From Turnera subulata (lineage: Eukaryota; Streptophyta; Magnoliopsida; Malpighiales; Passifloraceae): a DNA stretch of 64,000 bases. Numbering within the stretch: the first letter of the stretch is position 1; every line of letters starts with the position of its first letter. Shown here in pieces: positions 2,346-60,829 of this stretch. Below the pieces are notes generated by a model, which was given only the letters and a program-made list of their open reading frames with translations, did not search any database and was not told the origin of the DNA. The stretch is from NCBI GenBank assembly GCA_028386065.3, contig JAKUCV010001467.1, forward strand, positions 1-64,000, written 5' to 3'. The position numbers were made by a program, and so were the translations under genes.

Positions 2346-2380
2346 TATATGGATGATTGGCTTTAGTGCAAGTGGGAGAT

Positions 2381-3909
2381 TGTTAGTGTAATATGCCCAA
2401 AAGCCAATAATGGATGATTGTAGTCATGTATACACATTAAGGTTACTCCAATAAGTATCGTTTATGAGATAAACGCTTGTACATACTTATAACCCTAGAA
2501 TATTTCATATTCTTAAACTGTCCCTAGTCGATTATTATTATGGATGGGTTGTAATAATAAATTAAGACTAGCGCATGTTGAGAATTGCATATGTGATATG
2601 AATTCTACATACGGGTACAAGTTAGAGAACTTGTGGACTAGACCGACCTACATAAGAACGCTACTTGGAACGTTATATGTTTTATTGATAGCGGATCTTA
2701 TAATGTATTGTCCTTAGACCTGTGATCATCAAGGTTCCCAACATGTGAGTCATATGCTTTGATATTATTCCTGGTCATCTGTAATTGGATAGACGTAAGG
2801 GTAATTATTGGGTGTATGATGAGTGTGTAGTGGGTTTTGTATGATCCAGAGGGGATTCGTCCAACCCATATAACGGGTATATTATCGGAGCGTTTCTTGA
2901 TAGAGTTGAACCGTAAATGCATGGCCATGCTCGGATAATGATATATGATATCATTGGTATCCGTTTTACCGGTTAACTCTAGGATCAAGAAACCGAGATT
3001 AAACATATGCGAGATTGACATATTCCATGTCTCGTGTTTAATCTTGATAATGGGACGAAGGGACGATGACATGTTCCGAGGCACGTGGAATCAGTATTGA
3101 TCTTGTCGTTCTGGTGGCAATAATGTGTTGCTAGACGCCGCTCTTTGCTTATAATTGTAAAATGAGATTTTATGATTATTGCCGAACGTACAAGTGCCTA
3201 CAGGGTCACACACATACAGCCGTTGATTCGAGCAGGTGGTTGAACCGTGGTTGGACCATGGTTGAACCAAGGTGTGGTTGGACTGCGGTTGGACCGTGGT
3301 TGGACCAGGGTCGTTTTTGGGCTGGTTTGGTTCACTAAATGTCAGATTTTTTGGAACCAAAACATGCTGAGTTGTGTTGATAATTCTTAGTAGGAAACAT
3401 GATTGTGTGGAGGTATAATCATGTTGCTTAGTGGACCACCATGTTGGCCATTAACTCCACTAACGCATTATGCTTTTGAGGGTTGAGTGATCAGATCACT
3501 ATTACTCATCTTCTTCCTCACGCACACTTGTTCTTGAGAAAATTTTCAGAGCTTGAGAAGAGTTCTTGAGTGGTCTGAAAATTGAGAGAAAAACACCACA
3601 CATAAAAGCTCCCGGAAACCTGTTGCTAGCACACCAGTTCGGGAGAGCTCGGGTTGAAGTCGTGAGATGTTCTTCAACCGGTTATAGCGGTTCGTGTGGA
3701 TACCGTAGAGGGGCGAGGCCTTTGTCTGGCTCTTGCTGATTCGGTTCTACAGTTGGGTGAAAGACCTCAACCGTTACAGGTATGAAAAATTGTTATTCGG
3801 TTTAGTTCCCTTCACATGGATCCTCCATGTGTATCCGGTATTTCCGCTGCGCATACATGTTTGTATTTTTATGCTTTTGATTGTCAATTGTATGAACCGG
3901 ATACTTACA
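2381..3909 (+). repeat. 3' LTR of E0
   Basis: It starts TGTTAGTGTAATATG directly after the purine-rich AAGTGGGAGAT and ends CTTACA, 1529 bp. It matches the LTRs of C1 and C2 in reverse orientation. At 3236-3310 it holds imperfect short tandem repeats of GGTTGGACC-type words, also seen in the other family C LTRs. Confidence 0.9.
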
Positions 3910-8672: not shown

Positions 8673-8962
8673 CCAAATGTTAGAACTCATGGTTCATTAC
8701 AGGTTTTGATAGATGACAAACCAAGATCATAACATAGATGAAGCAAAAAGAAATCAAGCAAACAAGTACTCAACCAAAGTGATCAAGAATTCAAGTGAAG
8801 ATATGATCAAGAGTTGAAGTGCAAAGAAGAGCAAGAGAAGTTAGGACCCATTTGTACAAGGTAAAACACTCAACTTCTCTTAGGCATTGGCTCAAACAAA
8901 ACAAATTTCACTCATACATTTCATAGCATGCTTTCAGTCATAAAATTGTATTTTGAGTCAAT

Positions 8963-9650
8963 AACATCGATGTTGTAACCAAAAACATCGATGTTCTGTG
9001 TTTTCAAGTCTTTCTCAAAATTTGGCAGAAGTGCCAAAACATCGATGTTGTAATTAAAACATCGATGTTGTGATTTCTTCAACGATTTCCAAAATTTGGC
9101 AGTAGGCAAATAACATCGATGTTGGCATCCCAAACATCGATGTTCTAGTGACCGTTGCTTTTAAAACTAGTCAAAACATCGATGTTCCCATTTGTAACAT
9201 CGATGTTCCATAATGGTCAGTTTCAATTTGATTTTGTCGAACCAAAATAACATCGATGTTTCTTTTTAAACATCGATGTTCCTGCCTTCAAAGAATTATC
9301 CAAGAAATGGCAGAAGGCTCAGAACATCGATGTTGGCTTCCTAAACATCGATGTTCTCCTGACCGTTGCATTTGAAAACATCTTTACTTAAGCAAAACAT
9401 CGATGTTGGATTTCATAACATCGATGTTCTTCAATGGTCAGCTCTAATCATTTTTCACAGAAGCAAAATAACATCGATGTTGGATTTAAGACATCGATGT
9501 TCTTCATATGAAGCTTTGAAGGATTTTTACACAGAATCAAAATAACATCGATGTTGGGTTTGAGAACATTGATGTTTTAGTTACCGTTAGTCCAATAATT
9601 CAAATTTACTGGACAAAAACATCGATGTTGAGAACTAAAACATCGATGTT
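8963..9650. repeat. AACATCGATGTT paired dyad array, LTR5 of A
   Basis: Ten pairs of the 12-bp palindrome AACATCGATGTT, 18 of 20 copies perfect by hand count. Within a pair the copies start 20-21 bp apart (8963/8984, 9038/9058, 9112/9133, 9175/9196, 9249/9269, 9323/9344, 9396/9417, 9470/9490, 9544/9565, 9618/9639). Pairs repeat about every 74 bp (one step is 63). Sequence between dyads is much less conserved. All distances are near multiples of the 10.5-bp helical repeat. Confidence 0.95.
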
Positions 9651-9740
9651 ATGGCCGTTATTTCTAATAACTTTTAGCACCCACTATGTTTTGTTTAAGG
9701 CTGTTTTTGGGTGGATTTAAGCTCTATAACTTTTCAGAGC

Positions 9741-9747
9741 TATAAAT
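9741..9747 (+). promoter_or_regulatory. TATA box of LTR5 (element A)
   Basis: TATAAAT, 91 bp after the last dyad of the array. It marks the likely U3/R border of the LTR promoter. The 3' LTR has the same box at 13747-13753. Confidence 0.7.
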
Positions 9748-10324
9748 TGAGCATTTTTAGCTCTGTTTCATAATGAATCAACTCTCTACATTCATGCTAT
9801 TCATTCATACATCCATTACAAATCATTTTTGAGCCAATATCCTTTTGAGGATTTGAGACTTGCCTTTTAGAGCTTTACTTGTATACTCATATCTGCTCTT
9901 TGAGAGAGTTCTTTGTTTGAGTGGTTGAATTGTATATTCAAACACCTTAAGGGAGGTTAGTTTCCTTGTTGAGATTCGTAGGAAGAGGGTATATCTTCTT
10001 ATGTGAGAAGTCTTGAAGTGAGGTATCTTCAAGCAAGAGTGCTGAAGTTCATGTGACTTGAACTCTCAGGTTTAGGATTCTTGTGACTAGAATTCCTAGG
10101 TTGTAACGGTTTGTTAAGCACCCGTAAGCTTAACACTAGATAGTGAAATCTTCAAGTGAGACTTGAAGGGTTGGATTAGCCACACTAGTAGAGTGTGTGT
10201 GAACCAGGATAAATTGGTTGTGTCCTTCAATCTTTCAATTCCGCATTTAATTCCTGCCTATTTCATTTTAATTCGATTATCGCTATTCACCCCCCCTCTA
10301 GCGAAGGGCTATTGTTCTAATAAT

Positions 10325-10337
10325 TGGTAGCGGAGCC
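10325..10337 (+). other. PBS of element A (initiator tRNA-Met type)
   Basis: TGGTAGCGGAGCC, three bases after the LTR end. It resembles the plant copia site for initiator tRNA-Met (TGGTATCAGAGCC) with three mismatches. Confidence 0.8.
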
Positions 10338-10378
10338 TAACTCTCTGAAAAACTTAACCGTTTGAGAGGAAATCTTCC

Positions 10379-12141
10379 ATGGCTTCTTCAATTAATCATG
10401 CAGGAATCTTCGAAGGACATTCAACCGTTCGTCCACCGTACTTTGATGGCACCAATTACAGCTCCTGGAAAGAGAGGATGAGAATTTTCCTCCAATCCAA
10501 CAACTATGCTCTTTGGCGAATCATGAAGATTGGAGAGAAAATTCCGATGAAGAAAATTGGTGAAGTCTAAGTGCCAAAGACGGAGGAGGAGTACAACGCT
10601 GCTGACATCATATTGGTTGAAAACAATGCCAAATCAATCAATATGCTCTATTGTGTAGTCAACCCCGACGATTATCGAAAAATCTCTTGTTGCACAACCG
10701 CAAAAAAATGTGGGATAAGCTGGAGGTTACCTACGAAGGAACCGATCAAGTTCGGGAGGCTAAAATCGACTCCCTCACCTCTGATTATGAACTCTTTCGT
10801 ATGAAGGAGAATGAGGGAATTGAGGAGATGTTCGACCGCTTCTCCAAAATCATAAATGAGCTTCATGCTCTCAAGAAGGTCTACTCCGACAAGGACTTGG
10901 TCATAAAAGTTCTTCGAAGTCTCACTCCCGAATGGCGATCAAAGGCGGATGCCATCTACGAAAACATCGGCATCAACAACACAACGATTGATGGACTAAG
11001 AGGTAATCTTATAACCTATGAAACCACTATTCTTAAACCTTCTTTACCCTCTTTGCAGGAACCTAAGAAGAAGAACATAGCTTTCAAAGCTTCCACCTAC
11101 AAGACGCAAGAGCTCACTGAATCGGACTCTAGCGATGATGATCAAGAATTCGAGTTTGTCATCGGAAAATTCCGCAAATTCATGAAGAAAGAACTTGGGA
11201 AAGGAAAGAAGACATCCGGTTCACCCAAGTGTTATGAATGCGGAGAGGTTGGGCATATCAAGCCGAAGTGCCCAAAGGCAAAGGAAAGGAAGGAGAAGAA
11301 GCCCTACAAGAAGCAAAGGGCATACATCTCTTGGGGAGGAGATTCCGGTGATGAATCAAGTGATAGTGATGAAGAGGAGATCGCAAACCTCTGTCTCATG
11401 GCAAAGGAAGAAGCAGCGGAAGAGGTAAGTGATTCTGAACCTTCTAATCATGATGAATTGCAAGACGCTTTTAATGAATTGTATGCTGAATATATTAAAG
11501 TCTCTAAAATTCACTTAAAGCATAAGAAACAAATTGCTTCATTAGAAAAGAACATAGAAGAGCTTACTTGTGAAAATGAGAAATTAAAGGAAGAAAATAA
11601 GATTCTAGACACACCTAAGGAATGTGTATCATGTGGCTCTTTAAAAGAACAAAATGAAAAATTAGCATGTGAAAATGAGAAGCTGAAGGATGAAAATAAG
11701 GTACTAGGAAAGAAGAATCTTGAGGAATGTTCGTCATGTATGTCTTTAAGGAAACAAGTTGAACAACTTGAAACAACCTTAAAAAGGTTTAACACTCCTC
11801 ATAAAAATCTAAATTCTATGCTAGATAACTTGCAATCCACTAGGCATGGAATAGGTTTTAGGAATGAACCTAAAAGACATAAAGTTGGATCAAAGAAACC
11901 TAAGGTACAACCTAAGGTAAACAAGGTTAACAATGTGCATAAGTATAGGCAACATAACAACAATTATCAACCAAGGAGAATGCATAATCCAAATGTAATT
12001 TGCCATTATTGCAATAGAATAGGACACATTGCTCCTGTTTGCTTTACTAGGCATAGGCATTGGGCTCAAGAAGATGCTCATCATTACTATGTTCCTAACC
12101 ACCAAGGACCCAAAAAGATTTGGGTACCAAAATCCCTTTGA
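10379..12141 (+). pseudogene. SIRE-type gag pseudogene of element A
   Basis: Large nucleocapsid protein gene. Start chosen at MASSINHAG, homologous to the B gag start. The gag domain (SWKERMRIFLQ to about residue 220) is followed by two zinc knuckles, CYECGEVGHIKPKC and, near the end, CHYCNRIGHIAPVC, with a long glutamate- and lysine-rich coiled coil between them. Two knuckles plus coiled coil and the final WVPK are typical of SIRE/Maximus gag. Breaks: a TAA at 10568-10570 and a frameshift in the A-rich run near 10705. After that the frame is open for about 480 codons. Confidence 0.9.
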
Positions 12142-12688
12142 TTTGTTTTGCAGGTATGCTTGAAGGCATCAAGTGTACTTTGGTACCTTGATTGCGGATG
12201 CTCCAAGCAAATGACCAAAGAAGCATCCAAATTCTTGAAAGTGGCCACACTCGTTTGATTTCGATAGAAATGCAAGGATCAGAAGATGTTCGGCACCCCT
12301 CACTAAGACCAAGAGAAAGGGGGAATATGGTTTGCTGTAGAAGTAACATAATGAGGAAGAAGCTACTGATGAAGATGATGATAATGATGGAAACTAGGAA
12401 CCATCTTTCTAAACCCTTATCCTTGTTATCCTTTATGTTTTGTTTTCCATAAAATACTTTGCCATATGCATGAACTTAGGGGGAATTATAAGTCATACCT
12501 TAAGGGGGAAGAATAAATATATGCATCATCATTTCTTTTTGCTAATGCCAAAAGGGGGAAGATAAGAAAAAGTATATGTATATGCATCAAGATAGGAGGA
12601 ATCATTATTTGAAACAAATAGGGGGAATTATTGTTATTAATATTGGCATATACTTCTAGTTGTTTGTCATTATCAAAAAGGGAGAAAT
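12142..12688 (+). pseudogene. Protease stub joined to ORF3 tail (pol deleted)
   Basis: After gag the sequence starts the protease (WYLDCGCSKQMT; the catalytic DSG is changed to DCG) and breaks off near 12235. The next bases resemble the end of element B ORF3, including an acidic DEDDDN-coding run at 12350-12400. Then come the non-coding 3' region with repeated AGGGGGAA words and a polypurine tract just before the 3' LTR at 12689. The whole pol gene is deleted. Confidence 0.8.
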
Positions 12689-14328
12689 TGTTAGAACTCA
12701 TGGTTCATCACAGGTTTTGATAAATGACAAACCAAGATCATAACATAGATGAAGCAAAAAGAAATCAAGCAAACAAGTACTCAACCAAAGTGATCAAGAA
12801 TTCAAGTGAAGATATGATCAAGAGTTGAAGTGCAAAGAAGAGCAAGAGAAGTTAGGACCCATTTGTATAAGGTAAAACACTCAACTTCTCTTAGCATTGG
12901 CTCAAACAAAATAAATTTTACTCATACATTTCATAGCATGCTTTCAGTCATAAAATTGTATTTTGAGTCAATAACATCGATGTTGTAACAAAAAACATCG
13001 ATGTTCTGTGTTTTCAAGTCTTTCTCAAAATTTGGCAGAAGTGCCAAAACATCGATGTTGTAAATCGATGTTGTGATTTCTTCAACGATTTCCAAAATTT
13101 GGCAGTAGGCAAATAAGATCGATGTTGGCATCCCAAACATCGATGTTCTAGTGACCGTTGCTTTTAAAACTAGTCAAAACATCGATGTTCCCATTTGTAA
13201 CATCGATGTTCCATAATGGTCAGTTTCAATATGATTTTGTCGAACCAAAATAACATCGATGTTTCTTTTTAAATATCGATGTTCCTGCCTTCAAAGAATT
13301 TTCCAAGAAATGGCAGAAGGCTCAGAACATTGATGTTGGCTTCCTAAACATCGATGTTCTCCTGACCGTTGCATTTGAAAACATCTTTACTTAAGCAAAA
13401 CATCGATGTTGGATTTCATAACATCGATGTTCTTCAATGGTCAGCACTAATCGTTTTTCACAGAAGCAAAATAACATCGATGTTGGATTTAAGACATCGA
13501 TGTTCTTCATATGAAGCTTTGAAGGATTTTTACACAGAATCAAAATAACATCGATGTTGGGTTTGAGAACATCGATGTTTTAGTTACCGTTAGTCCAATA
13601 ATTCAAATTTACTGGACAAAACATCGATGTTGAGAACTAAAACATCGATGTTATGGCCGTTATTTCTAATAACTTTTAGCACCCACTATGTTTTGTTTAA
13701 GGCTGTTTTTGGGTGGATTTAAAACGGCTCTATAACTTTTCAGAGCTATAAATTGAGCATTTTTAGCTCTGTTTTATAATGAATCAACTCTCTACATTCA
13801 TGCTATTCATTCATACATCCATTACAAATCATTTTTGAGCCAATATCCTTTTGAGGATTTGAGACTTGCCTTTTAGAGCTTTACTTGTATACTCATATCT
13901 TCTCTTTGAGAGAGTTCTTTGTTTGATTGATTGAATTGTATATTCATACACCTTAAGGGAGGTTAGTTCCCTTGTTGAGATTCGTAGGAAGAGGGTATAT
14001 CTTCTTATGTGAGAAGTCTTGAAGTGAGGTATCTTCAAGCAAGAGTGCTGAAGTTCATGTGACTTGAACTCTCAGGTTTAGGATTCTTGTGACTAGAATT
14101 CCTAGGTTGTAACGGTTTGTTAAGCACCCGTAAGCTTAACACTAGATAGTGAAATCTTCAACTGAGACTTGAAGGGCTGGATTAGCCACACTAGTAGAGT
14201 GTGTGTGAACCAGGATAAATTGGTTGTGTCCTTCAATCTTTCAATTCCGCATTTAATTCCTGCCTATTTCATTTTAATTCGATTATCGCTATTCAACCCC
14301 CCTCTAGAGAAGGGCTATTATTCTAACA
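12689..14328 (+). repeat. 3' LTR of element A
   Basis: It starts TGTTAGAACTC and ends TTCTAACA, 1640 bp. It is very similar to the 5' LTR but has scattered substitutions and small indels. A short deletion joins two dyads near 13040-13070, leaving 19 copies. The dyad array spans 12973-13652. Confidence 0.93.
12973..13652. repeat. AACATCGATGTT array, LTR3 of A
   Basis: Same array as in the 5' LTR. A few copies are damaged: AAGATCGATGTT near 13114, AATATCGATGTT near 13272 and AACATTGATGTT near 13327. The last dyad ends 95 bp before TATAAAT at 13747. Confidence 0.93.
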
Positions 14329-16467: not shown

Positions 16468-17622
16468 TGATGCAAACCAAGGCAAGCTTAGAGGTTGGAA
16501 GAATGATGCACGCCAAGGCGACCATGGAGGAAGCAGTGGCGATAAGCATGGGGCTTGGATGTATTACAAGAACCTCAAATTTCTTCATCACAAGCTAACT
16601 TTCAGAATCAACATCAAGAATCGATCTTACAAGAAATTCAAGAGGAGATGGAGATCAAAGCCATGGACGAGATGAACAAGCGTAGAAATTCCTGGAGCGC
16701 ACAGTCTCGGAAATAAATTCATATCTCGAGCTCTACAACTCAAATTCTGCAATCTTGGATGCTCTGGAAAGATCAGACAAAGATCTACAACGTTGTTGTT
16801 GAGCCCAGAAGCTGAATCTGACGTCTTCATTCCGTAAAATTCACTAGACGTTGATGGATAGATTCTGTCCAGAAATTCAGTTTGGGTTTATTTGGGCTTA
16901 AGTATTCTTAGTTGGATTATTTGGGGTATTATTATTTGTGGGTTTTAGTTTTATTTAGTTGGATCATTAATAAGGCCAATTGTTGGACCAAGACTTTATT
17001 TATGTTGGGTTTTAATTTAGTTAATTAGGCCTAGTCCATTAGGTGATTGGATTTACAAATCCAACCCACTTAGGAGCTAGGGTTTATTATTCACGTGAAT
17101 AGTAACCGCGAGAATAGTACCTACGAGATTAATTTTAGGTTTAGGGTATTTAAACAATCTTTTCATTATTTTTAGGTGAAGACGTTTGATGAATAAAAAT
17201 TATCCCTTTGAGGTTTTTTTCAGGTTTTGAGTGATTCAACCGATTAAGACTGTTGACTCTCTTGTTCCTTGAGTGCTGATTCTCTAGAATTATTTTAGGG
17301 ATTTGAATTTACTATTCAGGTTTCTAATCTGTATTTGTGATTCTAATTCCTTGCTAATTTCTTTGTTCTCTTGCTGATTGGGGTTCAAGCAATTGGCGCC
17401 AACCACCGTGAGATTGTTGATTTCCTATTTCTTTCATGCTGATTTGGGAGAATTAGGGATTGGTGATTTCACAAGTTTGATTGAGGATTGAAAGGTCGGG
17501 ACCACAAACCTGATTTGGGGATTTCTAGTGCTGACTCTAGGATTGCCGTATCATCTTGAAAGGTCGGGACCACAAACCTGATTTGGGGATTTCTGGTGCT
17601 GACTCTAGGGATTGTCGTGTCA
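16468..17622 (+). repeat. 5' LTR of element T
   Basis: It runs from TGATGCAAACCAAGG to GTCGTGTCA. Near its end an 85-bp unit (AAAGGTCGGGACCAC...TCATCTTG) is tandemly duplicated, also in the 3' LTR. The inner TTGGCGCCAACC at 17392 looks like a PBS but lies inside the LTR. Confidence 0.88.
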
Positions 17623-18625: not shown

Positions 18626-19714
18626 ATGTCAAAGATATCTAGTAGCGTTGGAGGGAAGCCGAATATGTCTTCAATAATGGAGGTGTTGGGTAGAATAATT
18701 GCTCAGAATGAAGAACATAAGCGGGAGATCAAGGAGGAGTTCCGGGCAATCAATGCAACGATTGACCGCCGATCTAGAGATTTGAATACCCGGTTAGAGC
18801 AAGCGGTGCAGGAGCTGTCCAATAGCATTAGAGTAGCACCTAGGCGAGCTAGAGATGTAGAGCAAGCACAAGCTGCTTGTCCTAGAGCACCAGATGCACC
18901 AGCAAGGGAAGAAGAATTTTATGCTGAAGATGATTTTAATGAGTATGGAGAAGAAGCATGGTGTCGTGAAAAGCAAGAGGAAGAGAGGAAAGCTGAGAGC
19001 TTTGCACAAAGAGAGCTAGAGAGGAAGGAAAAAGAGGTTGAACAAGCCAAACTTAGTGAGCAAGAAAGGCAAGCCGAGGGCTTGGCAAAAGGAGAGCCAA
19101 AGTTGAGTGAAGAAAAGAGTGAAGACTTGAGTGGGAAAAGTGAAGATAAAATTGCCATTGTTGAGAGAAAATCAGTGGGGCAAAAGAAACAATTCTTAGT
19201 TGAAAATACAAGAAAAATGAGGGATGTTTTTGAGAAAAATAAAAGCTTGTTTGTACTTTTGTACAAAGAGGCTTGGTTTAAAGCTAACATTCATCCTTGT
19301 ATTTCTAGTTTTGTTGTTTCTTTGCAGGATTTTAGGGACGTTTTTCCTAAAGTGTTTATGTTGCATGGAGGCCAAATCAAGTTTGGTATGCACATTCCTA
19401 GGAAGAAGATGCATGTAGAAGACCCTGGTGGAGTGGCACATCAAGCAAAGGTGTTGTCTAGTCAAACATCCTTTGTAGGAATTAGAGGGAAGGTCTGGTT
19501 GCCCAAAGGATCAAGATGCATGAAGCACCTTCCAAGGGTTGCTCCAGGGTGCCAATTGAGTGTGTTTCATCAAGTAGATTTGGTTTGGGACTTCTCAAGA
19601 GCCACAAATCATGGCATTCTAAGCTTGATAATGGAGGGGGTGGACAATTCCACGTGTTATGGAGCATCAAAGACAAAGACTATAAGATTGCTCTGCAAGG
19701 TGAGTATCTTGTGA
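18626..19714 (+). pseudogene. Chimeric gag-pol remnant ORF of element T
   Basis: An uninterrupted 362-codon ORF. Residues 1-70 look like a coiled-coil N-terminus (IIAQNEEHKREIKEEF); residues 90-190 are rich in Glu, Lys and Arg. From about residue 205, SLFVLLYKEA and DFRDVFPKV resemble the stretch just before RT in Reina/CRM-type gypsy polyproteins. The remaining sequence does not match RT and must come from across a deletion junction. A good splice donor (AAG|GTGAGT near 19699) and acceptor (TTTTTGCAG near 19760) follow, and beyond the acceptor the frame ELDSSVNLF leads to a stop just before the LTR, where gypsy pol proteins often end. Whether it is translated is unknown. Confidence 0.6.
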
Positions 19715-19799: not shown

Positions 19800-20903
19800 T
19801 GATGCAAACCAAGACAAGCTTAGAGGTTGGAAGAATGATGCACGCCAAGGCGACCGTGGAGGAAGCAGTGGTGATAAGCATGGGGCTTGGATGTATTACA
19901 ACAACCTCAAATCTCTTCATCACAAGCTAACTTTCAGAATCAACATCAAGAATCAATCTCACAAGAAATTCAAGAAGAGATGGAGATCAAAGCCATGGAT
20001 GAGATGAACAAGCGCAGAAATTCCTGGAGCGCACAGTCTCGGAAATAAATTCATATCTTGAGCTCTACAACTTGGATTGCTACGATCTTGGATGCTCTGG
20101 AAAGATAACACAAAGATGTTGAGCCCAGAAGCTGAATCTGACGTCTTCATTCCGTAAAATTCACTAGACGTTGATGGATAGATTCTGTCCAGAAATTCAG
20201 TTTGGGTTTATTTGGGCTTAAGTATTCTTAGTTGGATTATTTGGGGTATTATTATTTGTGGGTTTTAGTTTTATTTAGTTGGATCATTAATAAGGCCAAT
20301 TGTTGGACCAAGACTTTATTTATGTTGGGTTTTAATTTAGTTAATTAGGCCTAGTCCATTAGGTGATTGGATTTACAATTCCAACCCACTTAGGAGCTAG
20401 GGTTATTATTCACGTGAATAGTACCTACGAGATTAATTTTAGGTTTAGGGTATTTAAACAATCTTTTCATTGTTTTTAGGTGAAGACGTTTGATGAATAA
20501 AAATTATCCCTTTGAGGTTTTCTTCAGGTTTTGAGTGATTCAACCTATCAAGAGTGCTGATTCTCTAAGATTATTTTAGGGATTTGAATTTACTATTCAG
20601 GTTTCTATTCTGTATTGGTGATTCTAATTCCTTGCTAATTTTCTGAACTCTTGCTGATTAGGGTTCAGGCAATTGGCGCCAACCACCGTGAGATTGTTGA
20701 TTTCCTATTTCTTTCTTGTTGATTTGGGGGAATTAGGGATTAGTGATTTCACAAGTTTGATTGAGGATTGAAAGGTCGAGACCACAAACCTAATTTGGGG
20801 ATTTCTAGTGCTGACTCTAGGGATTGCCGTATCATCTTGAAAGGTCGGAACCACAAACCTGATTTGGAGATTTTTAGTGCTGACTCTAGGAATTGCCGTA
20901 TCA
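19800..20903 (+). repeat. 3' LTR of element T
   Basis: It starts TGATGCAAACCAAGA after the purine tract and ends GCCGTATCA, followed by the TSD ACTAC. It is similar to the 5' LTR but about 50 bp shorter through small deletions. Confidence 0.88.
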
Positions 20904-26641: not shown

Positions 26642-27008
26642 TGATGAGAATTGGGAGGAGTTGAGAGGTGTTTTAGTGTGTTTTGGGAGTAAGGGAGGGA
26701 GAAGAAATTGAGAGGATTCGGGTTTAAGGGTGTATGAGTGAAGAATAAGGAGAGAGAGGTGTTAGAACTCATGCCTCTTTGTCTCATTTTAGGATTTTGA
26801 TATTGACAAACAAACCATGACTCAATTGAAGCAAAAAGAAATCAATCAAGAGGACAAGAATTGAAGTAACAAGCAAGAAGAGTTAGGAACACAAAATGTG
26901 CAAGGGTAAAACACTCAATTCTTCTAAGACACTGGCTCAAAACAAAATCAATTTTACATATGCATCAAATAGCATTCTTTCAAACACAAAAATGATTTTT
27001 GAGTATTG

Positions 27009-27498
27009 AACATCGATGTTCATGTTTTCAACATTGATGTTCCTGCCTAACAATGATTTAGAAAACAGGCAGCAGCTCAGAACATCGATGTTGGCTTCCC
27101 AAACATCGATGTTCTTGAGACCGTTGCACTTAAAATTTTTTGCAGCATCAGAGCATCGATGTTCCATCAATTGGTTTTCTTTAGAACTTTGGCAGAGCCT
27201 CAGAACATCGATGTCCAAATGGTAAACATCGATGTTCCAACATCAAACATCGATGTTCTGCATTAAGACATCGATGTTCCCATGATGCTTGTCTTTAATC
27301 TGTTTTGGCAGTAGTCCAAAACATCGATGTTCCCATGGCAAACATCGATGTTTTAGTGACCATTAGACTTAATAATTCATATTAACTGTCACAACATCGA
27401 TGTTCAACCATGAAACATCGATGTTCTCATGACCGTTAGCCCAAAATTTCAAATTTACTGGGTAAAATATCGATGTTCTATATCTAAACATCGATGTT
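27009..27498. repeat. AACATCGATGTT array, LTR5 of B
   Basis: About 15 dyads. Starts 27204, 27225, 27246 and 27267 form a run of four with exactly 21-bp steps. Other pairs are 27009/27030, 27081/27102, 27320/27341, 27393/27414 and 27466/27487, all 21 bp. Pair-to-pair steps are 71-73 bp. One orphan copy lies at 27152. Several pairs are followed by ACCGTTG or ACCGTTA. Confidence 0.94.
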
Positions 27499-27595
27499 GT
27501 GCCGTTGTGAGCAGACACCTTTTTCAACTCCCCATGTTGTTCTGTCTAAAGGTGTTTTGGATTGATTCCATAACGGTCATACATGTTTTGAGACA

Positions 27596-27604
27596 TATAA
27601 ATAG
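27596..27604 (+). promoter_or_regulatory. TATA box of LTR5 (element B)
   Basis: TATAAATAG, 98 bp after the last dyad. The 3' LTR copy is at 35363-35371, also 98 bp after its last dyad. Confidence 0.75.
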
Positions 27605-28144
27605 AGTTATTGCACCTCTGTTTAAAAACAATCAACTCTCTACAACTTAAGCATTCATTGTTATACATTCATACACATTTTCATGTGCCAATATTCTTGA
27701 GAATTGAGAGTTGCCTTTATAGAGCTTATTTGTTACTCATATCCACTCTTCTGAGAGAGCTTTTGTTTGAGTGATTTCAAGTGTTGTTATACAACTTAAG
27801 GGAGGTTTGTTCCCTTGTAGCAAATTCATAGGAAGAGTGTCTTTCTTTCTGTGAGAGAAGTCTTGAAGTGAGGTACCTTCAAGCAAATAAGGAGAGTTTC
27901 ATGTGACGCGAGCTCTAGGTCTATAAACGGTTTGTTAAGCACCCGGAAGCTTAACTTAGATAGTGAAATCTTCGAGAGAGTCTCTCGGAGGACTGGATTA
28001 GCCACACAAGTTGTGTGTGTGAACCAGTATAAATTTTTGTGTGTCCGTATTCTTTCAATTCTGCATTAATTTCCTGCAAATTTTTATTTTTGTCCCAAAA
28101 ACGCTATTCACCCCCCTCTAGCGTAGGGCACCTGTTCTAACAAT

Positions 28145-28157
28145 TGGTAGCAGAGCC
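28145..28157 (+). other. PBS of element B (initiator tRNA-Met type)
   Basis: TGGTAGCAGAGCC, two bases after the LTR; two mismatches from the common plant copia site TGGTATCAGAGCC. Confidence 0.85.
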
Positions 28158-28197
28158 TAACTCTCTGAAAGACCTAATCGTTTGAGAGAAAGTTTCC

Positions 28198-29873
28198 ATG
28201 GCTTCTTCAAGTAATTATGCATTACTCTTCGAAGGACAATCAACCACCCGTCCACTGCTCTTTGATGGCACCAACTACAGCTACTGGAAAGAGAGGATGA
28301 GAATCTTCCTCCAAGCAAACAACTATGCTCTCTGGCGAATCATGAAGATCGGAGAGCAAATTCCGACGAAGAAAGTTGGTGAAGCCACAGTGACAAAGAC
28401 GGAGGCGGAGTATGATGCTACAGACATTACGATGGTTGAAAACAACGCCAAATCAATCAATATGCTCTTTTGTGCAGTCAACCCCGATGATTATCGAAAA
28501 ATCTCTTGCTGCACAATCGCAAAAGAAATGTGGGATAAGCTGGAGGTCACCTAGAAGGAACCGATCACGTTCGAGAGGCCAAAATCAACTCCCTCACTGC
28601 AGAATACGAACTCTTTCGAATGAAGGAGAACGAGAGAATAGAGGAGATGTTCGAACGATTTTCTAAAATCGTAAATAACCTTCATGCTCTCAAGAAGGTC
28701 TACTCCGACAAGGACTTGGTCAGAAAAGTCCTTAGATGCCTCACTCCCGAATGGCGCTCTAAAGTCGATGCAATCTATGAAAACATCGGGACTTCGAACA
28801 CAACCATTGACAGTCTTAGAGGTAACCTTCTAACCCATGAAACTATTATTCTTAAACCCTCTCTGCAGGAACCGAAAAGGAAGGACATAGCTCTCAAAGC
28901 ATCCACCTCCAAGACGCAAGAGCTCTCTGAATTGGAATCTAGCAATGACGATCAAGAACTCGGACTTGTCATCCGTAAATTCCACAAATTTATGAAGAAG
29001 GAATCTGAAAGGAAAGGAAGGAAGATGTCCGGTCCTCCCAAGTGCTATGGGTGTGGAGAGGTTGGGCACATCAAGCCCAAGTGCCCCAAGGCAAAGGAAG
29101 GAAAAAAAAAGAAGCCCTACAAGAAGCAAAGGGCATACATCTCTTGGGGAGGCGATTCTGGCGATGAATCATCCGATAGTGATGAAGAAGAATCTGCCAA
29201 CCTTTGTCTCATGGCACAAGAGGAAGAACCGGAAGAGGTAAGTGCTTCTCCCTCAAGTGAAGACTTTACTTTTGAAGAATTACAAAATGCATTTAATGAG
29301 CTTTATAGTGAATTTATTTCTGCTTCTAGAGCTAACAAGAGCTTAAACAAACAAGTTACAACTCTAGGTGATGATATGGAAAATTTGTCGAAAGAGAATG
29401 AAAAACTTAAAGAAGAAAATAAGTTTTACGAAAAGAAGAGTGTCAATGAACCGGAAAGTTCAATCAAGGAATGTGCATCATGTAAATCACTAAAGAAACA
29501 AGTTGAAGAACTTGAAACAAAAACTAAGGAGTGTTCATCATGCATATCGTTAAGGGAACAAGTTGAAAAACTTGAAACAACCTTAAAGAAATTTAATACT
29601 CCTCAAAAGAACCTAAATTCTCTCTTAGGTAATTTGCAATCAACTAAGCATGAAGTAGGATTCAAAAATGAACCTAAGAAGAAGAAAATTGAGACTAAGC
29701 CTAGGAAACCTAAGGTTCAAGCGAAGGAAAACAAATTGAGTAAAGTGCACAAACATAGGCAACATAGTAACTATTATCAACCTAGAAGGATGCAGAACCC
29801 AAATGTTATTTGCCACTATTGTAGTAGAGTAGGACACATTGCTCTTGTATGCTTTACTAGGCATAAACATTAG
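28198..29873 (+). pseudogene. SIRE-type gag pseudogene of element B
   Basis: Start at MASSSNYALL, 40 bases after the PBS. Residues 1-119 give the N-terminal gag domain. A one-base deletion near 28552 creates a stop, and the frame resumes at 28620 (MKENERIEEMFERF). Zinc knuckle CYGCGEVGHIKPKC, an acidic region (DESSDSDEEE), a long coiled coil with repeated ECxSCxSL words, and a second knuckle CHYCSRVGHIALVC follow. A TAG at 29871-29873 replaces the tryptophan codon seen at the same place in A. Confidence 0.9.
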
Positions 29874-29939
29874 GCATAAGAAGAAGCTTATTACCAGTAT
29901 ACCCCTAACACTCAAGGACCCAAAAAGATGTGGGTACCA

Positions 29940-31131
29940 AAATCTCATTGATTTGCTTTTGTAGGTTTGCTTGAAGGCATCAAGTGTACTTTGGTACCTT
30001 GATAGCGGATGCTCCAAGCACATGACCGGAGAAGCATCCAAGTTCTTGCAAATTAAGCCATCAAATGGAGGAAACGTTGTCTTTGGAGACAACAACAAAG
30101 GAAAAATCATCGGCATTGGCTCGGTTGGTAAAAATGAATCTTCCTCAGTTGATAATGTTTTACTTGTTAAAGGTCTGAAACACAATCTCTTGAGCATAAG
30201 TCAATTATGTGACAAGGGAAATCGTGTGATTTTTTACTCCAAGTCATGCACCGTAGAACGTCTTAGTGATAATAAGATCATTCTACATGGTGATAGAATT
30301 GACAATATTTATATGGTTAAGTTGGAAGAGTCTTCATCAAATTTTTCAAAATATTTAATGAGCAAAGAAGATGATATGTGGTTGTGGCATCGTAGAATAG
30401 CTCATGTTAATGTGAAGATGTTAAACAAGTTGGTAACTCAAGACTTGGTGGTTGGCATTCCAAAGATTAAATTTGAAAAGGATTCTATATGTGATGCATG
30501 TCAAAAGGGGAAGCAAGTGAGAGCTTCGTTCAATTCCAAAAACGTTGTCTCAACATCTAGACTACTTCAACTTCTGCACATGGATCTCTTTGGTCCCTTA
30601 CAAACTAAAAGTTATGGAGGTAACTATTATGCCTTTGTAATTGTTGATGATTACACTAGATACACTTGGACTTTATTCCTAACTCATAAAAGTGAAGCAT
30701 TTAATGTGTTCAAGAGTTTTCTTAAGAAAGTTCAAAATGAAAAAGATTGTTCAATTACTTGCATTAGTAGTGATCATGGAGGTGAATTCGAAAATAATCA
30801 ATTTTCAACTTTTTGTGATAAACATGGCATTGAGCATGATTTCTCAGCCCCTCGGACACCACAACAAAATGGCGTTGTTGAACGCAAGAATCGGTGTCTT
30901 GAGGAAATGGCAAGAACAATGCTCAATGAGGCTAAAATTCCCAAGTACTTCTGGGCTGATGCAGTGAGTACGGCTTGCTATGTGTTAAACCGAGCAATCA
31001 TTAGGCTAATACTCCTGAAAACGCCCTATGAATTATACAAGGGAAGAAAGCCTAACATCTCTCATTTACGAGTCTTTGGATGCAAATGTTTCGTTCATAA
31101 TAATGGGAAAGACAATTTTCCCAAAATCTGA
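29940..31131 (+). pseudogene. Copia protease and integrase of element B
   Basis: Aspartic protease with the active site WYLDSGCSKHMTG, then the GAG-pre-integrase zinc domain (WLWHRRIAHVN; CDACQKGKQ) and the integrase core with all three catalytic residues: D in HMDLFGP, D in SSDHGGEF, E in VVERKNR. The frame is open for 386 codons, and these two domains look undamaged. It ends by frameshift at NFPKI, inside the conserved region after the core. Confidence 0.9.
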
Positions 31132-31944
31132 TGAAGGCATCTTTCTCGGTTATTCATTGCGCAGCAAAGCGTATAGAGTCTTCAATATACGCACTTTAAA
31201 GTATTGCGAGGAATTGCTTAAGCGCTTTGAAATGGACGGATCAAAGGAAATGGCCACACTAATGAGCACTTCCGAGCATCTAGACAAGGATGAGAAAGGT
31301 AAGGAAGTTGAGGTCAAAAAGTATCGAGGTATGATCGGATCCCTTCTCTACTTAACTGCAAGTAGGCCAGACATTATGTTTAGCGTTTGCTTATGTGCTA
31401 GGTATCAATCATGTCCTAAAGAGTCTCATCTTAAGGAAATTAAAAGAATTATGAAATACCTAATAGGCACAATTAATGTTGGACTGTGGTATCCTAAAGG
31501 TTCTACACTTCAACTCATAGGCTATTCCGACTCAGACTTCGCAGGATGCAAACTAGATCGTAAGAGTACTAGTGGAACTTGTCACTTACTTGGCAGCTCC
31601 TTAGTTTCTTGGTTTAGTAAAAACAAGCTAGTGTAGCCTTGTCCACCACTGAGGCGGAATACATTGCAGCTGCTAGTTGTTGTACTCAAATCATTTGGAT
31701 GAAACAACAACTAGAGGATTATGGTCTTAACATCAATCACATTCCTCTTAGGTGTGACAATACTAGTGCCATAAGTCTAACTAAGAATCCAATCTTACAT
31801 TCAAGGACTAAACATATTGACATTAGACATCACTTTATTAGAGATCATGCTCTCAACAGAGACATAGCTATTGAATTTGTGGACAAAAAATTTCAACTAG
31901 CCGATATTTTCACGAAACCCTTAGAGAAAGAGTCATTCTTCTGA
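31028..31944 (+). pseudogene. RT remnant and RNase H of element B
   Basis: The integrase C-terminal part (EGIFLGYS, KAYRVFN) runs without a stop into the very end of RT (ELLKRFEMDGSKEMATLM). So the whole RT catalytic core, including the YVDD box, is deleted at about 31195-31200. RNase H follows with YSDSDFAGC, then after a frameshift near 31630 STTEAEYIAA, LRCDNTSAI and HSRTKHIDIRHHF, ending in IFTKPLE. The RNase H catalytic residues are all visible but spread over two frames. Confidence 0.9.
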
Positions 31945-32120
31945 ATTTGAAATGAACTAGGAATACTTGACTCAACATTGATCTAATTTGTGCATTTTTT
32001 GTATGGTTTTATCGTATTGATTCTTTACTGACTTGAGCGTCGGAGTGTACTCTAAGTTATTTTGCAGGTACACCTCATTTAGGCAAAAAGACAGGGGGAA
32101 TAAGGATGCCGAGACTGCTC

Positions 32121-32722
32121 AACATCGATGTTGCACACCAAAACATCGATGTTTGGAGTATACAAAACTGGACCCGAGGCTGTACAACATCGATGTTGAG
32201 GAGCGAACATCGATGTTGAGTGGACTACAGATCGTACCATTTTCAACCAGTAGCTTACAACATCGATGTCTACGCCCAACATTGATGTTTGTCTCATGTG
32301 CACAATCAAGTCATTAACCAGCATGCTTAAACATCGATGATCAGTATCGAAACATCAATGTTCCGTAAGTACCTTCTTTTTCCCAGTAGTTTTAAACATC
32401 GATGCTTATAGGTAAGACATCGATGTTCTGTCATTACGTCTTAATATTTTTTTCCAGTAGTCGGAAACATCGATGTTCTCACAATTAAACATCGATGTTG
32501 TCTCGATTGGCGGCATTACAGATTGTGTCCAGAGGCTCCACAACATCGATGTTGAACTTATGAACATCGATGTTTAGACCTTACATTTAAAAAATATAGC
32601 CGTTGGGGAGTCAAACATCGATGTCTGCAACCAGAACATTGATGTTTGACCGTTAAAATTTCAAAAATATAGCCGTTGGAGAGCCTAAACATCAATGTTG
32701 TTTTGGACCAGACATCGATGTT
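32121..32722. repeat. Internal AACATCGATGTT array upstream of ORF3
   Basis: Nine pairs between pol and ORF3. Starts are 32121/32142, 32186/32206, 32259/32278, 32330/32351, 32395/32416, 32466/32488, 32542/32563, 32614/32635 and about 32690/32711. Steps within pairs are 19-22 bp and between pairs 65-76 bp. It is more degenerate than the LTR arrays; about half the copies have one change. Confidence 0.92.
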
Positions 32723-32806
32723 TAGCGTTATGCTACAAAAAAAATAGTCGTTAACTAGCCGTTGGAGCCTGGTGTAAGGACTACAACGACTCTATTTTTG
32801 CTCCCC

Positions 32807-32814
32807 TATATAAG
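32807..32814 (+). promoter_or_regulatory. TATA box of ORF3
   Basis: TATATAAG in CTCCCCTATATAAGTGATG. It lies 85 bp after the last internal dyad and 100 bp before the ORF3 start codon. CCGTT words lie between the array and the box. The arrangement copies that of the LTR promoters. Confidence 0.7.
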
Positions 32815-32906
32815 TGATGCCTCCCTCTCTCATTTTATACACTCCCTACTGTTTCTCATCCAATTTTTTCTCTCAAATCAATTCTCCTACCCATTCTTTT
32901 TCAAGT

Positions 32907-34250
32907 ATGGCAGGTGGGAAGAAAACTTTCAAAGGCAAATCTCCCGCTAAGGAGAGACCATCAAAGTCGAGAGGAGGCTCTTCCAGCTCAGCTCCTCACT
33001 ATGCCGTGGAAGGCACTTCAATTTGGTTCTCTTCCAGAGCTGACCTTCAAAACTTCAATCTCTTCTCCAAGCGGCTCATTGCAACCCCTCGATATCTTCT
33101 GATGATTTATCCGAGCATGAAGAATTACACACAGCTGGAGCCCCTTCTTCGAGCATCGGGCTTATGGGAGTTCGTGACCTTCAGTCTTCTTCAATTCAAT
33201 GCCGACTTTGTACGGGCCTTCTACTCCACCCTTCGCCGAGATGGTGATAACCTGACTGCTCACGTAAATGAAGTATCCATCAACATGACGTTGGAGGATT
33301 TCGGGACGGTTGATGGGTTGCCTTTTCAGGGAGACGATATTGCATCCTATGGCGGTGATTATTGGGCCAAAATCCATGAACCACCCTTTCTGAATGAGCT
33401 TGGCTTCACGGCCCTTGTTCGTCACAGTTCCGGGAGGCCAACCATTCAAACAATCAACCTGGAATACCGACTTCTCTTCTACCTCCTCACCCGGGTCATC
33501 AAGCCAAGAGACGGAAACCACACAATCATATCCGTTGAAGATATGAAAGTGCTTCATGCCATCCTTCACCATGCACCAATTAATTGGGCACGATTTGTGC
33601 TTATGCACATGTCGGACTATCCAACCACATTTCCTGATAATCCCCTACCATATGCCTTCCTGGTAGTGCACATTTTGTTGAATGCAGTTGTCAATGCTCG
33701 CATCGGTGTACAGGTTCCTCACTCAAAACTTTGGACAGTCAGTGATGCCACGTTTCACAGCAGAAAATCTGTGGCAGAACCAAGGACCGGCCAAACTTCC
33801 GAGCAAGCTCCACGGACTGCTCAAGCAGAAAGCTCTCGTACTGCCGCTTCTCGATGTCGAACCTCCAAAGTCACTCTTGAGTCCATTGCTGACTCCATCC
33901 ACGGCCTTCAATTAAGCATGACTAGCATGGGCCGAGCAATAGAGAGGATTGACACGGAAGTGCAACGACAAGGCCACTCTATTCGGTCTTAGTTTGCTAG
34001 TGTAAACTACAATCCTCCACCATATCACACCACACTTCATGGCTACAATTTTGAAGATGAAGGTGATGATGATGATGAGGACTACACTGAAACTGTGGAC
34101 GAAGATCCAATGGATGTTGAGGATGGTCAAGAAGGAGATGATGGTGAAGAAGGAGCAGTTGAAGAAGAAGAGGACAACATCCCTGCACAACAAACTAATG
34201 ATGATGATGATGATGATGATAATGACGATGGGAGCGACAGCCCAACTTTC
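32907..34250 (+). pseudogene. ORF3 of element B: plant-transposon-protein-like, acidic tail
   Basis: A 448-codon frame from MAGGKKTF to SDSPTF with a single in-frame TAG at 33990-33992. Residues 1-35 are basic and Ser-rich. Residues 45-290 (FSSRADLQNFNLFSKRL, the FVRAFYSTL block, INMTLEDFG, RLLFYLLTRVIKPRDGNHT) resemble the 'putative plant transposon protein' family. After a coiled-coil-like stretch (residues 315-360) the tail is strongly acidic and ends in an Asp run encoded by GAT repeats. I see no signal peptide or membrane segment, so it is not a typical env-like protein although it occupies the env position of SIRE elements. The tail of element A ends in a similar acidic run, so the gene was in the common ancestor. 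Confidence 0.7.
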
Positions 34251-34527
34251 TAAACTCTTATCTCTTGTTCTGTTTATGTCCTTTTCAATTAAATAAAATA
34301 TTTCCTATTGCTATTTCTTTTTGCTAATGCCAAAAGGGGGAAGATAAGTAGAAGTATATGCACCAAGAAATATGCACCAAGTTAGGGGGAATCATAGCTT
34401 GAAACACTTAGGGATAATTAACCTCACTTATGAATTCATAAAACTTGGTGCATACTAAATCCTAATTTTCAACTTGTAAATTTGGCATATACTCCTATTT
34501 GTTTGTCATTATCAAAAAAGGGGAAAC

Positions 34528-35909
34528 TGTTAGAACTCATGCCTCCTTGTCTCATTTCAGGGTTTTGAGATTGACAAACCAACCATGACTCAATTGAAGC
34601 AAAAAGAAATCAATCAAGAGCACAAGAATTGAAGTAACAAGGAAGAAGAGTTAGGAACACAAAATGTACAAGGGTAAAACACTCAATTCTTCTAAGACAT
34701 TGGCTCAAAACAAAATCAATTTTACATATGCATCAAATAGCATTCTTTCAAACACAAAAATGATTTTTGAGTATTGAACATCGATTTTCATGTTTTCAAC
34801 ATCGATGTTCCTGCCTAACATGATTCAGAAAACAGGCAGTAGCTCAGAACATCGATGTTGGCTTCCCAAACATCGATGTTCTTGTGACCGTTGCACTTAA
34901 ATTCTTTTGCAGCATCAGAGCATCGAAGTTCCATCAATTGGTTTTCTTTAGAACTTTGGTAGAGCCTCAGAACATCGATGTCCAAATGGTAAACATCGAT
35001 GTTCCAACATCAAACATCGATGTTCTGTATTAAGACATCGATGTTCCCATGATGCTCGTCTTTAATCTGTTTTGACAGTGTTCCAAAACATCGATGTTCC
35101 CATGGCAAACATCGATGTTTTAGTGACTGTTAGACTTCATAATTCATATTAGCTATCACAACATCGATGTTCAATCATGAAACATCGATGTTCTCAAGAT
35201 CGTTAGCCCAAAATTTCAAATTTACTGGGTAAAACATCGATGTTCTATATCTAAACATCGATGTTGTGCCGTTGTGAGCAAACATCTTTTTCAACTCCCC
35301 ATGTTGTTCTGTCTAAAGGTGTTTTGGATTGATTCTACAACGGTCATACATGTTTTGAGACATATAAATAGAGTTATTGCACCTCTGTTTAAAAACAATC
35401 AACTCTCTACAACTTAAGCATTCATTGTTATACATTCATACACACTTTCATGAGCCAATATTCTTGAGAATTGAGAGTTGCCTTTATAGAGATTATTTGT
35501 TACTCATATCCACTCTTCTGAGAGAGCTTCTGTTTGAGTGATTTCAAGTGTTGTTATACACCTTAAGGGAGGTTTGTTTCCTTGTAGCAAATTCATAGGA
35601 AGAGTGTCTTTCTTTTTGTGACAGAAGTCTTGAAGTGAGGTACCTTCAAGCAAATAAGGAGAGTTTCGTCTGACTCGAGTTCTTGGTCTGTAAACGGTTT
35701 GTTAAGCACCCGGAAGCTTAACTTAGACAGTGAAATCTTCGAGAGAGTCTCTCGGAGGACTGGATTAGCCACACAAGTTGTGTGTGTGAACCAGTATAAA
35801 TTTTGGTGTGTCCTTATTCTTTCAATTCCGCATTAGTTTCCTGCAAATTTTTATTTTTCTCCCAAAAAAGCTATTCACCCCCCTGTAGCGTAGGACACCT
35901 GTTCTAACA
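34528..35909 (+). repeat. 3' LTR of element B
   Basis: It starts TGTTAGAACTCATGCC after AAAAAAGGGGAAAC and ends TGTTCTAACA. Dyad array 34778-35265, TATA box 35363-35371. Few differences from the 5' LTR are seen by eye. Confidence 0.94.
34778..35265. repeat. AACATCGATGTT array, LTR3 of B
   Basis: Same array as at 27009-27498, including the run of four dyads. The first copy is AACATCGATTTT; the orphan is AGCATCGAAGTT. Confidence 0.93.
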
Positions 35910-45105: not shown

Positions 45106-45119
45106 ATATCCCACTTGCA

Positions 45120-45431
45120 CTAAAGCCAATCATCCACGTATCTAATACCAATGGATGTAGCATGACCATCATGCTTCCGCTGTGTGAGAGGCTTAGTCAA
45201 TGGATCTGCTACATTGTTCCCAGAAGGAACTATGCACGGCCTCAGTTGTAGAGTCGACAACTGTTTCTTGCTTGGAACTCTTCCAGGATACAGCACCACC
45301 TCCAAGACAAAACACTTAACCTGACTGCGATCCAAAGTCATCCCTATCAGTTTGGAAGCTAGCATTTGTGTAACCCTTTACAACAAGCTCATCAACACTT
45401 CCATATATAAGGAATGCATCCTTAGTCTTTC
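45120..45431 (-). pseudogene. C1 RNase H with internal deletion
   Basis: On the minus strand the frame has the end of the TDASFQ region, then TTEA directly followed by the VPSGNNVADPLTKPL tail. About 225 bp that encode the core (AEYIAASDAGKE to the CDNNGT motif and beyond) are missing relative to C2. The junction lies near 45237. E0 has the same deletion. Confidence 0.85.
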
Positions 45432-50606: not shown

Positions 50607-50619
50607 GGCTCCGCTACCA
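50607..50619 (-). other. PBS of C1
   Basis: On the minus strand TGGTAGCGGAGCC, one base after the 5' LTR; initiator tRNA-Met type. Confidence 0.8.
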
Positions 50620-50620
50620 C

Positions 50621-55291: not shown

Positions 55292-55302
55292 ATCTCCCAC
55301 TT

Positions 55303-60815: not shown

Positions 60816-60828
60816 GGCTCCGCTACCA
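60816..60828 (-). other. PBS of C2
   Basis: On the minus strand TGGTAGCGGAGCC, one base after the 5' LTR; identical to C1. Confidence 0.8.
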
Positions 60829-60829
60829 C

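Follow-up and report, generated by a model that had tools for sequence, protein, structure and literature searches.

What is the biological function of a long array of one palindrome inside a plant retrotransposon? This question is raised by a 64,000-nucleotide stretch of Turnera subulata DNA (assembly GCA_028386065.3, contig JAKUCV010001467.1, positions 1 to 64,000 of the forward strand), hereafter called the window, in which the 5' long terminal repeat (LTR) of a Copia element, element A, carries an array of dyad-symmetric sites at 8963-9650. We propose, with moderate confidence, that this array and its relatives in the window represent the repeated motif (RM) of Sirevirus elements with the core ACATCGATGT, and that they activate TATA-box promoters, are bound by a dimeric and probably host-encoded protein, are spaced by whole helical turns and were captured by a classic Copia family.

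Seven arrays and their helical spacing

Array A5, in the U3 region of the 5' LTR of element A, consists of 20 dyads that form 10 pairs. Eighteen of the dyads are exact copies of the 12-bp palindrome AACATCGATGTT, and two differ from it by one change each (GACATCGATGTT at 9490 and AACATTGATGTT at 9565). The original prediction had described 10 pairs, with copies 20-21 bp apart and pairs about 74 bp apart, and this description was borne out. Dyads lie 20-21 bp apart inside pairs and 42-54 bp apart from one pair to the next, and the first-to-first distances of successive pairs are 75, 74, 63, 74, 74, 73, 74, 74 and 74 bp, including one step of 63 bp.

The phenomenon extends beyond this array: the window holds seven such arrays in all, spread over four complete Copia elements (A to D). 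At one mismatch or less, 112 sites were found across the window, compared with a mean of 0.20 over 100 shuffles, and a chance origin of the clustering was rejected on these numbers. All 112 sites fall inside the seven arrays, to which no strand is assigned. Element A carries a second array in its 3' LTR (A3, 12973-13652; 20 positions, one of them damaged by a 7-bp deletion). Element B has 15 dyads in the U3 region of its 5' LTR (B5, 27009-27498), 18 in the linker between RNase H and an envelope-like (ENV-like) open reading frame (ORF) (Bint, 32121-32722) and 15 in the U3 region of its 3' LTR (B3, 34777-35265). Elements C and D carry 14 and 19 dyads, respectively, in their 5' leaders (array C, 49963-50368, between the primer-binding site (PBS) and gag; array D, 59898-60523, in which the outer bases are often G...C). 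These per-array counts allow at most two mismatches in the 10-bp core and miss sites that have decayed beyond that. A3 and B3 were dropped as the second LTRs of the same elements, leaving an independent set of 86 dyads in A5, B5, Bint, C and D, within which A5 is homologous to B5, and C and D represent one family.

Are the dyads aligned on the DNA helix? Spacings between neighbours cluster at 19-23, 31-33, 42-44 and 50-54 bp, near two, three, four and five turns. In a scan of periods from 5 to 30 bp, the best period is 10.6 bp for the 81 neighbour spacings and 10.5 bp for the 216 distances of up to 120 bp. The 37 long spacings reach a best mean cosine of 0.67 at 10.55 bp, compared with at most 0.44 in 5000 jittered sets. 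When each array was analyzed with random shifts of at most 5 bp applied to its long spacings and a period free to vary over 10-11 bp, phasing was significant in A5 (0 of 2000 jittered sets), B5 (p=0.025), Bint (p=0.001) and D (p=0.018), and the best periods for A5, B5, Bint, C and D were 10.56, 10.40, 10.50, 10.36 and 10.40 bp. Whole-array resultants at a fixed 10.5 bp are 0.79, 0.61 and 0.82 for A5, B5 and Bint, and that of A5 rises to 0.95 at 10.56 bp.

Several observations weigh against a strict phasing rule. One spacing of 59 bp in C and one of 71 bp in D are off the lattice, and a free scan of the 37 long spacings alone peaks at 10.0 bp, with a resultant of 0.69 versus 0.68 at 10.5 bp. 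Taken by itself, array C shows no significant phasing (p=0.096). At the fixed 10.5 bp, the C and D arrays are poorly coherent (0.33 and 0.36). Neighbours are thus in phase across the five arrays, but neither C nor D as a whole is one-sided at a single period. The spacings are also not independent, because the units are duplicated; collapsed to 12 distinct values, they still yield p=0.001 for whole turns and p=0.004 for any common phase, and for the 11 spacings outside the 50-54 bp class, a test at 10.6 bp against uniformly spread values gives p=0.003. Helical phasing is therefore supported for A5 and for neighbour spacings taken over the five arrays, and the claim that nearly all dyads face one side of the helix stands for A5 and fails for C and D at a fixed 10.5 bp.

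Instead of aligning proteins, a 10.5-bp rhythm could fix the rotational setting of a nucleosome, with two 74-bp units spanning 148 bp. The observed period of 10.5-10.6 bp and the unit of element A, which is about half a nucleosome core, are consistent with such a role, but C and D also have shorter units (63 and 53 bp), so that only the phase is common across arrays. Moreover, short AT steps suffice as a rotational nucleosome signal, for which an exact sequence of 10-12 bp is unneeded. Nucleosome positioning is thus a very improbable account of the arrays.

The spacers contain further recurrent words. The word GGCAG with an A or T after it precedes the dyad core by 14-15 bp in seven of the eight listed places, which lie in A5, B5 and D. 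TGACCGTT recurs in the long spacers of the Sirevirus-type arrays (8963-9650, 27009-27498 and 32121-32722); its MYB-type AACGG core is seen 8 times versus 1.1 expected in the 37 long spacers, as a motif that was picked after looking. The M-phase element consensus has two full matches in the linker of B. Outside plants, one contig was returned when viral contigs were scanned for the paired dyad, namely IMGVR_UViG_3300011188_000015, in which GGGAACATCGATGTTCCC occurs twice, 22 bp apart (L001 6504-6537). This pair is perhaps a phage operator, and nothing about it suggests a relationship with the plant elements.

Conservation of the dyads and their CpG

How the dyads behave depends on the time scale. 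When the 5' and 3' LTRs of A are compared, substitutions affect 4 of 228 dyad positions and 5 of 452 spacer positions (p=0.49), and when those of B are compared, 4 of 168 and 19 of 321 (p=0.11); pooled, the two classes do not differ significantly (8/396 versus 24/773, p=0.35). Between A and B, 10 of 177 dyad positions differ versus 130 of 310 spacer positions (p=5e-20; 252 of 870 in the rest of the LTR), a contrast that leaves out gap columns (52 in dyads, 152 in spacers) and is inflated by an alignment that anchors on the dyads. An alignment-free comparison bears on the same point: within arrays, dyads are 87-99% identical, and long spacers are 47-54% identical versus 41-48% when shuffled (in A5, 98% for dyads and 54% versus 48% for long spacers). 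The prediction that the dyad rather than the repeat unit is conserved is thereby upheld between families and not between the LTRs of one insertion. Equal divergence of dyads and spacers, which had been named as evidence against it, occurs between the two LTRs of a single insertion, as for dead copies, and not between families. The pattern is the one predicted if selection acts on copies while they replicate and dead copies then decay neutrally.

Alternatively, the arrays could be products of tandem duplication and homogenization of a repeat that happened to contain a palindrome, with conservation and phasing as by-products. Tandem-repeat periods of 21, 53, 63 and 73-74 bp were detected, and after insertion dyads and spacers decay alike. 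Duplication does occur, because spacers within arrays exceed their shuffled identity by 5-8 points, and the short spacers of C reach 62% versus 43%. However, homogenization would preserve the spacers along with the dyads, whereas the long spacers are far more divergent than the dyads. The rhythm is not merely that of a decayed 21-bp repeat either, because spacings of 32 and 53 bp are close to multiples of 10.5 and not of 21. We disfavour this neutral origin and regard it as scarcely probable.

The central CpG is retained in 76 of the 86 dyads, and outside the dyads 34 CpG are seen versus 79 expected. This depletion is clearest in A5, B5 and D; less favourably for a general rule, it is slight in Bint (15 versus 18.9) and C (8 versus 11.7). 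Among the 10 dyads that have lost the CpG, eight did so by C to T or G to A, as for methylated cytosine. CpG retention in the dyads and its scarcity around them could also be read as the mark of landing sites for an element-encoded demethylating protein, analogous to VANC, that counteracts silencing. The candidate would be the ENV-like protein, whose ORF (32907-33992, plus strand) directly follows the linker array of B. It resembles PF20167 ('Transposase_32') below the cut-off (36.6 bits versus 45), and its relatives at E 0.001 are nine database proteins, one from Turnera and eight from Cuscuta. Its structure model has a low mean predicted local distance difference test score (pLDDT 43), which neither supports nor excludes a DNA-binding fold, and the ENV-like protein was set aside as the binding factor because the model is too poor. 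Arrays are also present in A, C and D, whose listed frames of at least 60 amino acids, not all of them profile-scanned, show nothing of ENV size beyond gag and pol, and four published Sireviruses without ENV are described as carrying the motif (PMC2829016). An anti-silencing role of this kind therefore appears quite improbable.

Could the palindromes be selected as RNA rather than as DNA? Neighbouring dyads would pair as 12-bp hairpins with 8-9-nt loops, and the RNA would be either selected itself or recognized by the host, feeding small-RNA silencing. Work attributed to Bousios in 2016 reportedly found that maize Sirevirus palindromes are small-RNA hotspots. The arrays fold better than shuffled sequences (z -15.5 for A5 with 20 shuffles; z -12.5 for C with 100 shuffles), but low folding energy is a consequence of the palindromes themselves. 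Complementarity between the arms at outer positions slightly exceeds shuffles (42/44 versus 39.6, p=0.17; 14/44 versus 11.6, p=0.20), while the inner flanks are uncompensated (29/44 versus 32.8; 15/44 versus 15.3), and hairpin selection was set aside since cross-arm compensation is not significant. Symmetry likewise does not extend beyond the core above chance, with flanking positions symmetric in 26 and 68 of 86 dyads versus 26.9 and 69.2 in shuffles. Folding alone would be served just as well by any complementary pair, but one set of core letters recurs in all five arrays, and hairpins leave the spacings of three, four and five turns between pairs unexplained. Maize Sirevirus palindromes are reported to attract excess small RNAs (PMC10760457, PMC5311732), in line with an RNA role. 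We favour a sequence-reading protein over RNA structure because letters, and not just pairing, recur across lineages, and we consider RNA structure unlikely as the explanation of the arrays, although protein-mediated activation and a structural or small-RNA role may both hold.

Promoters and a proposed activating module

Where do the arrays lie relative to promoters? The U3 arrays begin 285 bp (A) and 249 bp (B) into the LTR. TATAAAT boxes follow them on the plus strand, at 9741-9747, 91 bp past the last A5 dyad, and at 27596 in the sense of B, 98 bp past B5, each being the single TATAWA word within 400 bp downstream of its array; a TATA box likewise lies 98 bp past B3. In the linker of B, TATATAA at 32807-32813 (plus strand) stands 85 bp past the last Bint dyad and about 94 nt before the ATG of the ENV-like ORF. 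A weak TATATAA at 49861-49867 (minus strand) lies 96 bp past array C in the sense of the element, in a leader with several TATA-like words, another of them at 199 bp. At the mean TATAWAW density of the window, four of the five arrays having a TATA box at this distance (85-98 bp) would be unlikely, with a probability of 8e-8. Two points count against a general link to promoters: the distances of A5 and B5 are not independent, because these arrays are homologous, and array D is followed by no TATAWA in the next 400 bp. Since A5 and B5 share descent and the C leader has several TATA-like words, only the LTR and linker boxes are taken as solid.

From this anatomy, we infer a mechanism of activation. 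Each dyad would be the binding site of a dimeric protein that recognizes its sequence, probably a transcription factor of the host, and whole-turn spacing would set neighbouring dimers on one face of the helix, where they could touch each other or a shared co-activator. Each array would then act as an upstream activating module for the TATA box 85-98 bp downstream, both at the LTR promoter and at a putative promoter private to the ENV-like gene. Since arrays are present whether or not an ENV-like ORF accompanies them, we favour a factor supplied by the host over one encoded by the element.

The leader arrays of C and D are placed differently. They start 238 nt (C; PBS at 50607-50619) and 292 nt (D) past the PBS, and are separated from the first ATG of the listed gag frames by 815 nt (C) and 645 nt (D). 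A Sirevirus solo LTR nested inside C and D was considered as their source and rejected: each element is complete and flanked by matching duplications of 5 bp, and the array occupies a similar position after the PBS in the two. It therefore belongs to the C/D family, which would have gained it in the 5' leader, most likely from a Sirevirus.

Host elements, kinship of the arrays and known systems

The limits of the four elements were drawn from self-comparison, end motifs and target-site duplications (TSDs). Elements A (8678-14328; LTRs 8678-10322 and 12689-14328; TSD CCAAA) and B (26760-35909; LTRs 26760-28142 and 34528-35909; TSD AGAGG) lie on the plus strand. Elements C (43540-51971; 5' LTR 50621-51971, 3' LTR 43540-45105; TSD CGAAG in element sense) and D (53772-62302; 5' LTR 60830-62302, 3' LTR 53772-55291; TSD GATCC in element sense) lie on the minus strand; D is a second copy of the C family and matches C over 3377 columns with 90.6% identity. 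All four encode Copia-type gag or pol domains. The gag of A combines gag_2 with a zinc knuckle; no pol was found in A by domain scan and reading frames, nor was most of the reverse transcriptase (RT) of B found between the SH3-like domain and the RT end (31019-31633), and A and B would thus depend on other copies. The pol frame of D has 7930 relatives at E <=0.001, with Hibiscus, Gossypium and Malus proteins among the 120 listed, which marks the sequence as plant DNA.

By motif criteria rather than an RT tree, A and B look like Sirevirus-type elements and C and D like classic Copia. Sirevirus marks have been described as repeated polypurine tracts (PPTs), a polyC signal, an ATTGG junction, long LTRs and a linker with ENV (Bousios et al. 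2010, PMC2829016). The linker PPT octamer occurs five times in A and three times in B as AGGGGGAA, which is the Sirevirus form AGGGGGAG, expected in several copies, with its final G replaced by A, a change published for Tnd-1 and ToRTL1 (PMC2829016); the terminal PPTs are the variants AGGGAGAA in A and AAGGGGAA in B. At the 3' LTR, the attachment site is AT/TG in A, as in the Sirevirus reference, and AC/TG in B. The 5' LTR junction of B, CA/ATTGG-TAGCAGAGC, has one mismatch to the Sirevirus CA/ATTGG plus TATCAGAGC; that of A, TA/ATTGG-TAGCGGAGC, departs at the LTR end and has two PBS mismatches to TATCAGAGC. A polyC-rich integrase signal stands near the LTR end (CCCCCCC at 10290 in A, CCCCCC at 28111 in B), both elements have long LTRs, and B has a long linker with the ENV-like ORF. 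Neither a PPT octamer nor a run of five C occurs in the internal parts or 5' LTRs of C and D, their linker is 14 nt long, and the junction reads ACA/GTGG-TAGCGGAGCC rather than ATTGG.

Other repeats accompany these elements. In the C/D-family LTRs (43540-45105, 53772-55291, 60830-62302 and 2380-3900), GGTTGRACCA-like palindromes make up a second and shorter array, with many of its members 11 bp, or about one helical turn, apart; it is nearly lost in the 5' LTR of C. Within the pol of C, a 337-bp tandem duplication (45822-46495) is 95% alike. Elsewhere, long direct repeats at 16468-17622 and 19800-20903, 91% alike, flank an ORF (18626-19714) without a Pfam match, and no dyad site lies there.

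Do the leader arrays share descent with the Sirevirus-type arrays? Mean long-spacer identity between the Sirevirus-type arrays and C or D is at the shuffled level. A local search in element sense detects likeness between the Sirevirus spacers and those of C (mean p=0.009, best p=0.005) and D (mean 0 of 1500 shuffles), as judged from eight tests uncorrected for multiplicity, a reservation against kinship to which the best match of D (p=0.085, not significant) adds. On the opposite strand, neither value for C reaches significance (0.25, 0.51), and D does so only for its best match (0.015; mean 0.18). Control 40-mers from the window score lower (means 14.0-16.6 versus 18.2 and 18.8), and the best match between C and A spacers, 19 identical positions in 22 columns, adjoins a dyad. 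Because the spacers share this local likeness, capture is preferred over independent origin: the C/D family most likely took over the array from a Sirevirus, with modest support. More tentatively, the ACATCGATGT array may be a portable promoter module, such that a Sirevirus-type array, in C perhaps with its TATA box, moved into the leader of an unrelated Copia family and several lineages rely on one host dimer that selects both letters and phase; this broader view seems possible, though we would not call it probable. If the module does move between lineages, retrotransposons swap regulatory parts much like genes.

The nearest known systems are the RMs of Sireviruses, published palindromes for which a regulatory role has been proposed (Bousios et al. 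2010, PMC2829016). The arrays of A and B resemble them in dyad symmetry, high copy number (at least eight copies, here 20, 15 and 18 dyads in A5, B5 and Bint), a U3 site soon followed by a TATA box (91 and 98 bp), copies before ENV (TATA at 85 bp) and divergence between copies. They are unlike them in their core, which is ATCGAT rather than CGG-CCG, and in that the dyad is also present in the leaders of two classic-looking elements, whereas the RM is stated in that paper to be absent from classic Copia. The same text reports no common RM-binding factor and calls for promoter tests, and helical spacing goes unmentioned in its Results and in one section of its Discussion. The spacing rule, together with one dyad in two Copia lineages, offers a concrete lever toward a single binding factor.

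The nearest published motif is the RM of tobacco Tnd-1, ACAATCGATTGT, which shares the ATCGAT centre, the dyad symmetry and the exception to CGG-CCG, and the Tnd-1 PPT octamer ends in A like the linker copies of A and B (PMC2829016). The flanks of ATCGAT are ACA/TGT in Tnd-1 and AAC/GTT here, and, unlike B, Tnd-1 has no ENV and no linker copies (PMC2829016). Maize Sirevirus palindromes also cluster in the LTR cis region with strong predicted RNA structure, but their sequence, CACCGGACNNNGTCCGGTG, is a different motif (PMC10760457, PMC5311732); maize Helitrons are reported to share the Copia palindrome (PMC10760457). The VANC targets of VANDAL elements differ in being non-palindromic (YAGTATTAY), bound by an element-encoded protein and located in a DNA transposon (PMC5735166).

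The leader arrays of C and D recall a different case. The Copia element has regulatory sites downstream of its 5' LTR. An activator in the 5' untranslated region of that element is also mentioned by Bousios et al. (PMC2829016); it lies downstream of the 5' LTR like the C and D arrays, in a different host and lineage, and is likened to them by position alone. Among the papers listed by a non-exhaustive literature search, judged by titles and the beginnings of abstracts, nothing was nearer than the Bousios paper for CATCGATG, ACATCGATGT or ACAATCGATTGT. The arrays belong to a class that is already known, to which the helical spacing rule and the presence of the dyad in a second Copia lineage may be new additions.
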